This document shows positions 4,229 to 24,107 of a DNA stretch of 27,023 nt, piece after piece. Each line of letters starts with the position of its first letter. The first letter of the stretch is position 1. The notes below the pieces were generated by a model. It did no database searches, was not told the DNA's origin, and worked only from the letters and a program-made list of their open reading frames with translations. The position numbers and the translations under genes are program-made. Source of the stretch: a virus; IMG/VR virus record IMGVR_UViG_3300027779_000128, positions 1-27,023 of that record. One strand, given 5' to 3'.

Positions 4229-7200
4229 TGGCAATTATTCGCACAAAGAGAAGTACGGGTACTACTGCGCCAGGTTCTAATATACTCAAGAACGGTGAAC
4301 TCGCATATACAATGGGTACTGGTACTCAGGGTAATAGTGGTGGAAGACTGTTCATTGGTAAAGATTCAAATGGGTCAGGATACGCTGCCTCTGCATCAGT
4401 AGTTGGTGGTAAATACTTTACAGACATGTTAGATCATGTTGCTGGTGTTAATACTGCATCAAGTGCATTGATCGTAGATGCAAGTAAAAAACTAGACGAA
4501 TTAACGGTTGATTTTGTATCAATAAACAATAGTACAATAAATTCTACTGGTTCAAATGATATCAATATAATCCCTGCAGCTGGTTACTCAGTAACACTTG
4601 ACAACCAAGTCAAAGTAGATTCTGACGTAATTACTGGTGTAGCATCTATCACAACTGGTGCTGTTCTTGGATTGACATCAGATCTTATTCCAAATGCAGA
4701 TAGTGCAATATCTCTCGGTTCTGCTACAAAGAAATGGAAAGATCTTTTCCTATCAGGTGGAACTATTCATATTGGTGGATTAACACTTAAAGATAATAAC
4801 GGTCAACTTGAAGTAAAAGACAGTGATGGTGTCGTAAAATTAGATACAAGTGTCACTGCTGGTACAACAGCAAAAACTGCGACAACTATCGTAGACGGTG
4901 ACAGATTTGTCATGAACGACAGTGGTACTATGAAACAGGTTACTGTTGAAGACATGGCAAGATACTTTGATGACGAAATCACTGCGATGCCAAACTTAAC
5001 ATCTGCACCTGCACTTGTTACGACTGTCGCGACTTCAGTTGGTGCTTTAAACTCTGGTTCAATCACATCAGGGTTTGGAAGTATCGATGTTGGTGCTGAT
5101 TCAGTCACAACAACTGGTACGATGACTGCTAGTAAGGTTGTAACAAACAATATAACAGTCGATGTAAATACAATTAGTTCTACCAACACAAATGGTAACA
5201 TTGTTATATCACCCCACGGATCTGGATCAGTCGATGTTGCGACAAGCAAGATTATAGGTGTAGTCGATCCTACAGATTCAGCAGGCGCTGCTTCTAAGAA
5301 TTATGTTGACACAGTTTTAGATCTACAGGACTTAGACGTTGCAACAGACAGTGGTACAATTGACGTAGACCTAGATGACGAAACACTTACAATTGCTGGT
5401 GGTACTGGTCTCGGATCAGTAGGTTCTGGTACTACAGTAACACTGAATATAGATGCAACTGTTGCAACTCTTACGGGTAGTCAGACACTTACAAATAAAA
5501 CGTTAACAACTCCAAACGTGTCAAATCCAAATATTACACCAAGTGCCACCGCAGCTGGTACAATTGAGTTTAAAGAAGGTACAAACAACGGAACAAACCG
5601 AGTTCTTCTTCAAGGGCCAGCGTCTACTGCTGACGCGACTCTTACACTTCCTGCCGCGACTGACACATTGGTTGGTAAGGCAACAACAGATACATTAACG
5701 AATAAAACGTTAACAACACCAGTTATATCCAACCCGACAATCTCACCAAGTGCGACTGCGGCTGGTACTATTACATTTAAAGAGGGTACAAATAACGGAA
5801 CAAACCGTGTCCTTCTCCAAGGGCCTGCGGCAACTTCGGATGTAACGATAACACTTCCCGCTGATTCGGATACTTTAGTCGGTAGAGCAACAACAGACAC
5901 ATTAACAAATAAAACGTTAACAAGTCCTACTATAACAACCCCGAACGTGTTAAATCCAAATATTACACCAAGCAATAGTGCCGCAGGTACTATTGTATTT
6001 AAAGAGGGTACAGACAATGGCACTAATAGTGTCACTCTTCAAGGTGCCGCATCTACTGCGGATGTAACAGTAACACTACCTGCCGCGACTGATACATTGG
6101 TTGGTAAGGCAACAACAGACACGTTAACAAACAAGACATTAACAACTCCGACTATAACAACTCCACTGGTGTTAAATCCAAATATCACTCCGAGTGCGAC
6201 TGCCGCTGGTACTATTACCTTTAAAGAAGGTACAAACAATGGTACTAATAGTCTCACCCTTCAAGGTGCCGCATCTACTGCGGATGTAACAGTCACTCTT
6301 CCTGCCTCAACAGATACTCTGGTAGGTAAAGCAACAACAGATACATTTACAAATAAATCTTTTGATGCAGACGGAACAGGTAACTCACTTACAAACATAG
6401 AAGTTGCAAACCTTAAATCTGGTGTGTTAGACGCAGATATAACTGCGGTATCTACAAACGATGATACTCTGCCATCTGCGAAAGCAGTTAAAGCATATGT
6501 CGATGCAAAAACAATAAACGTTGTCGCTGGTGCAGACAGTGACACATTTAATCTACTAGACTCTGACATGATCTTTGCCGCTGGTGAAGGAATGGATGTT
6601 GCACTATCAGGTAATACAGTTACATTCTCTGGTGAAGACGCAACAGTATCAAACAAAGGTGTTGCATCATTTGCGACTGCAAACTTTGCAGTAAGTTCTG
6701 GTGCGGTTACAACTAAAGCAACTACAATAGGTTCTACTGCAATCAACGCTGGTGGAACATCTACTGTACTAGCAGGATTGACACAGATTGATGTAGACAA
6801 TATAAGAATACTAGACAATACAGTCGGTTCAACAAGTGGTACATTATTCATTGATCCAAACCCGATTGACAGTGATGGTGGTGAAGTTGTTATTCGAGGT
6901 AACCTTACAATTCAAGGTACACAAACACAAATTAGATCTACATCATTAAACGTAAGTGATCTAAACATCGTCCTTGCAGACAGTGCAGGAAATGCCGCTG
7001 CCGCAGATGGTGCAGGATTTACAGTAGGTGGTGGAGGATACTCAGGTACAAAAGCAACACTCACATTCAATGGTTCTAATGATGAATGGGAAGTAAACAA
7101 AACTCTTAACGTTACATCAGGATCTCTTGAAGTCGGTGGAGTTGATTACCTAGAAGCAGTCCGAGATAATCTAGGTGGTGGAGTTCTAGTCGCTGGTGAA

Positions 7201-21993: not shown

Positions 21994-22004
21994 GCATACA
22001 AAGA

Positions 22005-22041
22005 GGTGGATAAACCACCCATTATCATCACCTTCGGGTGA
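22005..22041 (+). other. Two adjacent short RNA hairpins after gp23
   Basis: GGTGG (22005-22009) pairs with CCACC (22015-22019). Then TCACC (22028-22032) pairs with GGTGA (22037-22041) around a TTCG tetraloop in a C(UUCG)G context, an exceptionally stable RNA loop. Neither is followed by a U-run, so they are read as 3' end stabilisers or processing signals rather than terminators. Confidence 0.6.
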
Positions 22042-22048
22042 CAACTTT

Positions 22049-22075
22049 AGAGGGGCAGAAATGCCCCTCTTTTTT
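22049..22075 (+). terminator. Strong intrinsic terminator after the capsid operon
   Basis: AGAGGGGCA (22049-22057) pairs perfectly over nine base pairs with TGCCCCTCT (22062-22070) around a GAAA tetraloop, immediately followed by a T-run. This is a textbook factor-independent terminator. It isolates the heavily transcribed head genes from the sigma-4 operon, which has its own promoter ~55 bases further on. Confidence 0.92.
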
Positions 22076-22128
22076 GTGTTAAAATAGTCACACTGTTCTT
22101 TTATTTTCAAAACAAATGCATTTAATGC

Positions 22129-22157
22129 TTGCATTGAGTCGATATATGGTCTATAGT
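22129..22157 (+). promoter_or_regulatory. sigma-70-type promoter for the sigma-4 operon
   Basis: TTGCAT (22129-22134) and TATAGT (22152-22157) are separated by 17 bases. A perfect palindrome, AAATGCATTT (22114-22123), lies just upstream, and its AATGCA half also forms a dyad with TGCATT (22130-22135) across the -35 box, suggesting an operator. AAAAGGA precedes ATG 22189. No late box is visible here. Confidence 0.68.
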
Positions 22158-22188
22158 AATAGTATATCAAGAGAGAAAAGGAATCACT

Positions 22189-22440
22189 ATGAGAAACTTT
22201 GGAATGGAAAAAACCATCATCGCAAAACAATTAGTCGCAATGATGGTTAAAAAACTAAAATTAATGGAACGTCAATTTCCTGTGCGTGACCTTTTGATTT
22301 GGGCAGAACGTGAATATGGTGGAATGACTCTTGAGGATATTGGGTGTAAACATTCTATTGGAAGGGAACGTGTTCGTCAGATACACATAAAAACTGGCGT
22401 GGTTGTAAATAAGTTTATAAAAGAAAGGGAGGCTGTATAA
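22189..22440 (+). CDS. Stand-alone sigma-70 region 4 protein (putative transcription regulator), 83 aa
   Basis: The central part is a clear sigma-70 region 4.2 helix-turn-helix, the part of housekeeping sigma that reads the -35 box: GGMTLEDIGCKHSIGRERVRQIH at residues ~44-66, where RERVRQI is the recognition-helix hallmark. Residues 1-40 are a basic helical segment with no visible sigma region 2 or 3. It therefore cannot melt promoters alone; it could bind the RNA polymerase beta flap, replace host region 4, or act as activator or anti-sigma. T4 gp33, which mimics region 4 on the beta flap, is a functional parallel, but gp33 lacks this canonical motif. It heads a three-gene operon with one-base overlaps and its own promoter. 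A plain HTH repressor is the alternative. Confidence 0.8.
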   Translation: MRNFGMEKTIIAKQLVAMMVKKLKLMERQFPVRDLLIWAEREYGGMTLEDIGCKHSIGRERVRQIHIKTGVVVNKFIKEREAV

Positions 22441-22700
22441 TGATACATCAACACGAAGACATCGAGAGATCAATCTTCAATAAGGGTTTAGAAGTATTGC
22501 ATATGCATGTTAAAGAATCAGCACTATGGTCATTTTTTGATTGGGAAGAAGGCTTTGGAATAGGATCTTCTGATATCAACGCATGTGTTCGCGAGATCTT
22601 AAAGTGTTATTTTAAGAGTGCAGACGATGCACCTGACCACGAGTTTAATATCGTGAGAAATATGGTTTCAGATGAATTAGTTTTAATGGAGAATATATAA
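22440..22700 (+). CDS. Hypothetical protein, 86 aa
   Basis: Not recognised. A small acidic, His-rich helical protein (IHQHEDIERSIFNKGLEVLHMHVKE) with a Trp/Phe-rich middle (ALWSFFDWEEGFGIGSSDINACV) and two Cys residues. There is no membrane segment. The start shares one base with the stop of the sigma-4 gene and its own stop shares one base with the next start, so it is translated as part of this small operon. Such proteins are commonly host-takeover factors in T4-like phages, but that is only inference. Confidence 0.7.
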   Translation: MIHQHEDIERSIFNKGLEVLHMHVKESALWSFFDWEEGFGIGSSDINACVREILKCYFKSADDAPDHEFNIVRNMVSDELVLMENI

Positions 22701-23017
22701 TGAATGCGAGACAAATGTTTGAATATGATGGATGGCAATTCAGTGAACCAGTTAATAATTTTATTGAGTATGTAAACTCGTTTTATGGTCGTGACGGAAT
22801 TTATCGTTTAATGAAAAACGGCAAGTGGGCAACTGTATCAGATATTACAGTTGCAATTGGAGCAACAACGTTTAACTTAGATGAAGGTACTTTTTGTGGA
22901 GACTCAATTGACCGTGAAGCAGTTCGTTGGACTTTAGAAGAAATGGGATTTGCAGAAGATAGTCAAACTGTAAGACATTACTCAGAGACTACTGGTGCGA
23001 CAACTTGTCACTCTTGA
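22700..23017 (+). CDS. Hypothetical protein, 105 aa
   Basis: Not recognised. The N-terminus is aromatic-rich (MFEYDGWQFSEPVNNFIEYVNSFYGRDGIY). A central segment, WATVSDITVAIGATTFNLDEGTF, looks like a beta/turn region, then a helix (DREAVRWTLEEMGF) follows. It ends in CHS. There are no catalytic motifs. The alternation suggests a compact alpha/beta fold. It is the last gene of the sigma-4 operon, and its TGA lies within the -35 box of the next promoter, the same arrangement as at base 887. Confidence 0.7.
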   Translation: MNARQMFEYDGWQFSEPVNNFIEYVNSFYGRDGIYRLMKNGKWATVSDITVAIGATTFNLDEGTFCGDSIDREAVRWTLEEMGFAEDSQTVRHYSETTGATTCHS

Positions 23018-23042
23018 CAAAGGGGTGTTTCGTACTTATATA
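23014..23042 (+). promoter_or_regulatory. sigma-70-type promoter ahead of gp3/uvsY
   Basis: TTGACA (23014-23019) and TATATA (23037-23042) are separated by 17 bases. The -35 box includes the stop codon of the preceding gene. With the late box at 23090 it forms an early-plus-late tandem, sensible because uvsY is a replication gene and gp3 a virion gene. Confidence 0.6.
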
Positions 23043-23089
23043 AATGTATGACTCACCTTTAATCATTTTCTGGTCGGGGCTGAATCCCT

Positions 23090-23097
23090 TATAAATA
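23090..23097 (+). promoter_or_regulatory. T4-type late promoter (TATAAATA) for gp3
   Basis: An exact TATAAATA box lies 24 bases ahead of ATG 23122. The ~50 bases between this and the upstream sigma-70 -10 box hold only a weak GGG/CCC stem (23077-23088). Confidence 0.78.
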
Positions 23098-23121
23098 GAT
23101 ATGTAAACAAAGGATAGATCT

Positions 23122-23646
23122 ATGGCAGTTACCGAATCAGCACTTTCGCAAAGAAACTTTTTGCAACCAAACGGTTATCAATTAACCGTATATCGTAAGA
23201 GATTTCAAAACTTAGAGTTCTTTGCTCAGAGAGTGTCACATCCTACATTAACAATGAATCCATCAATAGTGGGTTTCAAGAGAACTGACGCTAAGATAGT
23301 TGGGGATACATTAGAGTTCGGTGAACTAAACGTAGAAGTATTACTAGACGAAAAAATGGCAGTCTATGAAGAAATGCAAAAATGGATGGAGTCTTTAGTC
23401 AATACAAGGTTCAGCCTACCTTCAGAAAACGCAAACGGTTTGGGAAATACTACCATCCAAGACATGCCAGAATATGACATTAGATTGTCTATCTTAAACA
23501 GTAACAACAACGTTGCAAAGACTATACTATATAAATCATGTTTCCCGATATCTCTTGGAAACATCGAATTCGCATCATCAGTAGGGGTGGTAGAATATGT
23601 GGTGTTACCCGTAACATTTGCATATAACACATTTGAAATAAAATAA
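23122..23646 (+). CDS. 3: Tail completion protein gp3-like (tail-tube fold)
   Basis: Predicted tail tip/tube terminator. The sequence has the pattern of tail-tube-fold proteins: NGYQLTVYRKRFQNLEFFAQRVSHPTLTM, then GDTLEFGELNVEVLLDEKMAVYEEMQKWMESL, and C-terminal strands ILYKSCFPISLGNIEFASSVGVVEYVVLPVTFAYN, which parallel the FRGCFPTSISAI and FTVEFQVQYW strands of gp19 in this window. Length is 174, the same as gp19 (175) and T4 gp3 (176). In cyanophage-like genomes gp3 commonly sits between gp23 and uvsY, exactly this place. A baseplate tube initiator such as gp54 is a less likely alternative. It has both a late and a sigma-70-like promoter upstream. Confidence 0.7.
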   Translation: MAVTESALSQRNFLQPNGYQLTVYRKRFQNLEFFAQRVSHPTLTMNPSIVGFKRTDAKIVGDTLEFGELNVEVLLDEKMAVYEEMQKWMESLVNTRFSLPSENANGLGNTTIQDMPEYDIRLSILNSNNNVAKTILYKSCFPISLGNIEFASSVGVVEYVVLPVTFAYNTFEIK

Positions 23647-23660
23647 TATGAAAGTACATT

Positions 23661-24107
23661 ATGAAACAATTAGATCTTATCCTAAAAGAATGGGAAAAAG
23701 ATAGTCCTATCGACAACAGTTCGTTAGACGAAACTTCTCGACAGACTCCAATGCTTCACGCAAAATACCTTGGACTACTTGCAGATGCAAAGATCCAAAA
23801 GAATAGGGCTGAAGCGAATCAGAAAACCTTGTTGCGAGACAAGTGGTTATACTATAATGGTAAGATGGATAAAGATGAAGTAGAGTCTAGGGGTTGGAAT
23901 TACGATCCACTAGATGGTAGACTTGTGATGAAAGGTGACATGAATAAGTATTATGATGCCGATCCTGATATCCAACATAGTGAAGAGAATGTGATTGCAT
24001 GGAAAACTGTTACGGAGACTCTCACTGAGATAGTAAACAATTTAAACTGGAGACATCAGACGATTGGTAATATGATCAGGTGGAGGATGTTTGAAGCTGG
24101 GTCTTAA
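23661..24107 (+). CDS. uvsY: Recombination mediator UvsY
   Basis: UvsY loads the UvsX recombinase onto single-stranded DNA by displacing the single-strand binding protein gp32, enabling recombination-dependent replication. The sequence follows the T4 protein: a short N-terminal helix (LDLILKEWEKDSPIDNSSLDE), a basic central region with LRDKWLYYNGKMDKDE (compare YYSGRGDGDEF in T4), an acidic linker, and the C-terminal end IRWRMFEAGS, matching MRAFEAGK at the T4 C-terminus. Length 148 against 137. It starts 14 bases after gp3 and its 3' end overlaps the converging minus-strand gene by 32 bases. Confidence 0.9.
   Translation: MKQLDLILKEWEKDSPIDNSSLDETSRQTPMLHAKYLGLLADAKIQKNRAEANQKTLLRDKWLYYNGKMDKDEVESRGWNYDPLDGRLVMKGDMNKYYDADPDIQHSEENVIAWKTVTETLTEIVNNLNWRHQTIGNMIRWRMFEAGS

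Follow-up and report, generated by a model that had tools for sequence, protein, structure and literature searches.

The question raised by this locus is what a T4-like phage might do with a lone sigma-type helix-turn-helix (HTH). The window, meaning the whole stretch of DNA that was analysed (27,023 nucleotides), is a 27-kb marine virus fragment of a T4-like phage, and behind the gene for the major capsid protein gp23 it encodes an 83-residue protein, P0001, which is a phage-borne sigma piece used alone (Table 1). The best explanation, to which we assign a probability of about 0.5, is that P0001 is an accessory, early-type DNA-binding mini-protein derived from sigma region 4.2, which recognises -35-like (TTGAC-type) sequences and thereby acts as a regulator of transcription.

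Table 1. Coordinates of the features discussed, in the window and in related contigs
Sequence	Feature	Position	Strand	Basis or remark
Window	Major capsid protein (gp23) gene, next upstream of P0001	20626..21993	+	phrog_138, E 9e-162
Window	Intrinsic terminator closing the gp23 unit	22049..22070	+	9-bp stem, 6 G-C, then T run
Window	Candidate sigma-70-type promoter TTGCAT-17-TATAGT	22129..22157	+	Read from sequence; weak, 8/12
Window	P0001, 83-aa stand-alone sigma-4.2 protein	22189..22440	+	ORF, ATG to TAA; PF04545
Window; L001; L095	27-nt string common to all three	22222..22248; 877-903; 5956-5982	+ (window)	Exact identity
Window	Region 4.2 HTH, P0001 residues 41-68	22309..22392	+	Pfam envelope; AlphaFold2 pLDDT about 84-93 over residues 31-70
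Window	Recognition helix RERVRQI, residues 59-65	22363..22383	+	Alignment to E. coli RpoD
Window	86-aa gene, overlaps P0001 stop (TAATG)	22440..22700	+	phmmer E 4e-4 to L154/L156
Window	105-aa phrog_7799 gene	22700..23017	+	phrog_7799, E 7.8e-8
Window	T4-type late promoter TATAAATA	23090..23097	+	Late transcription resumes for gp3
Window	gp3-like tail-completion/tail-tube gene	23122..23646	+	phrog_45, E 2.5e-29
Window	uvsY	23661..24107	+	phrog_231, E 1e-33
L140	Complete stand-alone region 4, 117 aa	4274-4627		PF04545, E 6e-13
L201	Complete stand-alone region 4, 142 aa	3495-3923		PF04545, E 2e-11
L199	Complete stand-alone region 4, 116 aa	328-678		PF04545, E 6.5e-8
L200	Truncated copy at contig end	2-208

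The sigma-type helix-turn-helix and its homologues

The start codon of P0001 is preceded by the purine-rich AAAAGGA, and the encoded protein is basic (pI 10.0, charge about +7). Only one Pfam family was matched, Sigma70_r4 (PF04545; E 1.6e-5), with 24.8 bits against a curated cut-off of 24.1 and with residues 41-68 spanning profile positions 16-43 of 50. The cut-off was also exceeded by the homologue in contig L095 (30.2 bits, E 3.1e-7), every NCBIfam match of P0001 was a sigma factor, and the PDB sequence matches of a three-row profile were likewise all sigma factors. From the two Pfam scores and the sigma-only matches it was deduced that the HTH is more than a chance resemblance. Region 4.2 was the sole match by Pfam and NCBIfam, and no region 2, which serves core binding and -10 recognition, was found in the 83 residues. 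In the alignment to RpoD of E. coli MG1655, R59, E60, R63 and Q64 of P0001 correspond to R584, E585, R588 and Q589 of sigma-70 (4/4 kept), while T583 is replaced by Gly. A part for R584, E585 and R588 in -35 reading is indicated by genetic work and by a co-crystal structure (PMC2613000). The sequence-only reading, which had proposed a stand-alone sigma-4.2 HTH that lacks region 2 and retains its recognition helix, was therefore correct on both points and on the limits of the reading frame.

The same reading had called the product a region 4 protein. This label holds for region 4.2 but not for the flap-binding region 4.1, which was not recognisable: hhalign against region 4 of RpoD and RpoS covered residues 43-68 only, and the stretch alignable with sigma comes to just 26-28 residues. 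The NCBIfam sigma70-ECF model aligned with residues 29-66 over equal lengths (E 0.13), and this alignment may include a remnant of the helix preceding the HTH. AlphaFold2 predicted four helices each for P0001 and the L095 protein, with a mean pLDDT of 77 for both, from shallow two-row alignments whose five models differ widely. Among the Foldseek neighbours of both models sigma region 4 predominated, although every match was weak (E of 0.2 or higher, TM near 0.5). Other weak neighbours were KorA, ArdK and UPF0122, and the weak matches of the L095 model included the YlxM/UPF0122 structures 1xsv and 1s7o.

The appearance of KorA and ArdK among these neighbours is in line with an ordinary small HTH repressor of KorA/ArdK-like use, which would act as a dimer on its own palindromic operator and in which the sigma-like helix would be a borrowed fold. 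P0001 is small and basic and has a conserved N-terminal helix, as would suit such a protein, and upstream of the gene the candidate -35 element is overlapped by short inverted repeats, for instance AATGCA-N9-TGCATT; these, however, are 6-nt repeats in an AT-rich spacer and were not significant. The base-reading positions of the recognition helix are identical to those of primary sigma in both homologues, which argues against this reading, and we consider a repressor of this kind unlikely. Since the inverted repeats near P0001 were short only, no operator palindrome was assigned.

Homologues were sought by scanning 2.9 million viral contigs, and two further contigs, L001 and L095, were obtained. 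The scans used short peptide patterns that may miss divergent relatives, so the observed rarity is a lower bound on the true spread. L001 was not counted as a third independent homologue because it switches between the other two at a 27-nt string of exact identity: to the left of the string it equals the window (152 nt) and to the right it equals L095 (187 nt), and it joins gp23 to an early region. L001 is therefore taken to be either a recombinant or an assembly chimera, the latter being more likely. The conservation thus rests on two independent homologues, and the equivalents of R584, E585, R588 and Q589 are identical in both. The N-terminal helix is also conserved between P0001 and the L095 protein, and dN/dS for this pair was about 0.24-0.52, depending on method and segment, indicating purifying selection.

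Searches of 50,697 phage records, of plasmids and of 84,980 prokaryote species yielded no stand-alone relative of P0001, and no description of a stand-alone sigma-4 protein of this type was found in the open-licence literature. Matches in a Vibrio phage and two Aeromonas phages were HTHs within larger proteins annotated as, or resembling, full sigma factors. A small and rare gene with no close homologue in the phage records or plasmids could be the decaying, functionless fragment of a captured sigma gene. This explanation was deemed very improbable, as two phage lineages have kept the gene whole and under purifying selection, with its distinct N-terminal helix conserved and with tight packing in operons.

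Genomic setting and the early slot

The gp23 of the window was 66% identical to that of Phage C48C1 (Kyanoviridae), its best named relative, and about 60% identical to those of Methylophilales phage Melnitz and Pelagibacter phage HTVC008M. The gene order in relatives is gp23, gp3, uvsY, uvsW and gp55, with small variable genes interspersed. The gp23-gp3 interval (21994-23121 in the window) varies, and in L008, L018, L023, L030 and L063 it holds small ORFs on the opposite strand.

P0001 had been described as encoded just after the capsid operon, and it does lie behind gp23, but in a separate unit. The gp23 unit is closed by a strong terminator, the stem of which is identical in L001. No late promoter of at least 7/8 match was found in the 100 bp upstream of P0001, and the window's five TATAAATA late promoters each lie at most 75 bp upstream of a same-strand gene start, the next perfect one, at 23090, serving gp3 and none serving P0001. 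From the terminator, the absent late promoter and the gp3 promoter it was deduced that P0001 and the next two genes form their own unit between two late units; the first two of these observations rule out membership in the capsid operon. Where the cassette ends, ahead of the late promoter for gp3, TTGACA-17-TATATA (23014-23042) gives a 10/12 sigma-70-type match, which together with the late promoter may form a double promoter for gp3 and uvsY.

In L095 the P0001 homologue is located in the early region, behind ribonucleotide-reductase genes (nrdA/nrdB-type, named after the matching Melnitz genes) and between genes of 98 and 61 aa, and it overlaps its neighbours by TAATG. In Melnitz the counterparts of these flanking genes (88 and 65 aa) lie side by side, with no P0001 homologue between them, which implies that a single site in an early operon either holds the gene or lacks it. 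Melnitz-like phages (L105-L184) have a hypervariable cargo slot in their early region (about 900 bp after the 88-aa gene), in which the next gene changes by contig; many different small genes were seen in a survey of about 50 contigs. Phage-encoded ribosomal protein bS21 was observed in the same early region (L095 8818-9081, L001 3732-4001 and Melnitz 35389-35661), on the basis of annotation in Melnitz, phrog_21469 for L001 and resemblance for L095.

The two genes that follow P0001 in the window also have relatives at this slot. The 86-aa gene weakly resembles the slot gene of L154 and L156, which there lies directly behind the 88-aa gene, and the 105-aa gene belongs to phrog_7799, which is conserved in related phages as the usual flank of the early slot. 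Since all three genes have early-slot relatives, the block 22189-23017 gives the impression of an early-slot segment whose genes were relocated to the late region. The phrog_7799 proteins of the window and its relatives have a conserved GDSxDRExVR motif that by eye is like the sigma recognition helix RERVRQI.

Further stand-alone sigma-4 genes were found on the marine T4-like contigs L140, L201 and L199, in each case between phrog_7799 and the 88-aa gene, which they directly follow. Their products resemble P0001 as stand-alone sigma-4 proteins of the early slot beside phrog_7799, but they are longer (116-142 aa), have an extra N-terminal part and cover PF04545 positions 2-49 or 2-50 of 50, region 4.1 included. 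The recognition helix of the L199 protein is altered (SGGRIGQI). Because the HTH alone can be aligned between P0001 and these proteins, sigma-4 pieces either reached the slot at least twice or have drifted far apart inside it. P0001 appears to be encoded by a swappable accessory gene of early type and is probably a transcription regulator.

Candidate targets and possible docking on RNA polymerase

The early regions of relatives hold near-consensus TTGACA-17-TATAAT promoters. L095 has five with at least 11/12 matches, compared to 0.33 expected per shuffle, and its P0001 homologue lies behind TTGACT-17-TATAGT (10/12) at 5581. Natural sites would therefore be available there to a helix with TTGAC reading retained, and the TTGACA promoters common in relatives are perhaps the targets of P0001. 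A repeated intergenic element (GCCTTGACATTTGTT..AACATGTATAATAT) with a perfect or near-perfect TTGACA-17-TATAAT was observed at 6384-6456, 7052-7124 and 12093-12165 in L095 and at 1109-1182 and 2038-2115 in L001, and is seemingly the early promoter of phages of this type. The candidate promoter upstream of P0001 is in register with the early promoters of relatives, and its 8/12, the best intergenic score, was not above shuffles; an own early promoter was accordingly kept as a candidate only.

For P0001 we infer early expression, -35 binding and competition with sigma region 4. The protein would be expressed early from host-type promoters and would compete with sigma region 4 for -35 elements, both in the early promoters of the phage itself and perhaps in host promoters. 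Such occupancy would damp early or host transcription, and the conserved N-terminal helix might supply dimerisation or a contact to RNA polymerase. When polymerase is missing, the affinity of an isolated region 4 for -35 DNA is generally low, and this counts against the explanation. The explanation is further weakened by an upstream promoter no better than shuffles, by the small number of homologues and by the Gly at the T583 position.

The sequence-only reading had suggested possible docking on the beta flap with displacement of host sigma region 4. P0001 would then be a mimic of sigma region 4 on the flap tip that either displaces the host region or joins gp55 and adds -35 reading, as a co-activator, an appropriator or the second half of a split sigma. 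This is consistent with the -35-reading residues kept in P0001, with the inclusion of region 4.1 in the stand-alone proteins of L140, L201 and L199, and with the known division of labour in T4, where gp55 lacks sigma-4 and gp33 and gp55 have already been described as a split sigma (PMC2988020). The claim was not sustained for P0001 itself, as its 4.1 segment could not be aligned; docking is possible for this protein, and it is easier to envisage for proteins of the L140 type, in which region 4 is complete. The late promoters of the window gave no significant -35 match, the best summed score of 15/30 being reached by 5% of shuffles, so that the promoters lend a gp55 partnership no support. Complete annotated relatives, moreover, encode gp33 elsewhere. 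Mimicry of region 4 on the flap was consequently judged rather unlikely.

A broader proposal builds on such docking: marine T4-like phages may possess sigma-4 subunits that read DNA, can be exchanged and, by docking on the flap, give -35 specificity to gp55-type (region-2-only) or host polymerase. This would be a true two-piece sigma whose pieces are swapped via the cargo slot, and we regard it as quite doubtful.

Comparison with known systems

The T4 co-activator gp33, which is marked by binding to the beta flap and the sliding clamp, is like P0001 in being a small phage protein, seen as a sigma-4 counterpart, of a gp55-type phage. The contrast originally drawn between the two was correct, since gp33 attaches to the flap but does not resemble sigma in sequence and does not read DNA (PMC2988020). 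The proposed check for gp33 homologues gave gp33 (phrog_254) in 5/5 annotated complete relatives and in 2/3 IMG/VR relatives of at least 140 kb; the window ends in uvsW, and an own gp33 or gp55 is therefore not visible in the fragment. In C48C1, gp33 adjoins the gene for the single-strand binding protein, whereas P0001 sits between gp23 and gp3 and not beside gp32. The gp33 role is already filled in complete relatives (Melnitz; PMC9004378). Since gp33 is encoded elsewhere in relatives, it was concluded that P0001 is not its counterpart, and orthology was excluded also because P0001 had no match to phrog_254; no close PHROG was found for P0001.

P0001 shares with region 4 of RpoD and RpoS the 4.2 HTH and identical base-reading residues. 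It differs from a primary sigma in having no regions 1-3, no recognisable 4.1, a length of 83 aa and an alignment confined to the HTH. The YlxM/UPF0122 proteins are likewise small and stand-alone with a sigma-4-like fold, but they are a bacterial family, and P0001 had no match to them in the Pfam and NCBIfam scans. With T4 AsiA and other phage anti-sigma proteins the outcome could be the same, namely loss of -35-dependent transcription; AsiA, however, binds and remodels sigma region 4 (PMC6755090) and is not known to have a sigma-type HTH. In SigO-RsoA of B. subtilis, sigma functions are split between separate proteins (PMC10141391), whereas no region-2 partner gene lies beside P0001 and gp55 would be the sole candidate partner.

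In the takeover of transcription by T4-like phages, gp55 serves as a region-2-only sigma and gp33 binds the flap and reads no DNA. P0001, with its lone -35-reading helix, and the recurrent sigma-4 proteins of the slot suggest that sigma pieces serve some marine T4-like phages to adjust the activity of early or host promoters, a concrete prediction that lends itself to testing on small purified proteins.
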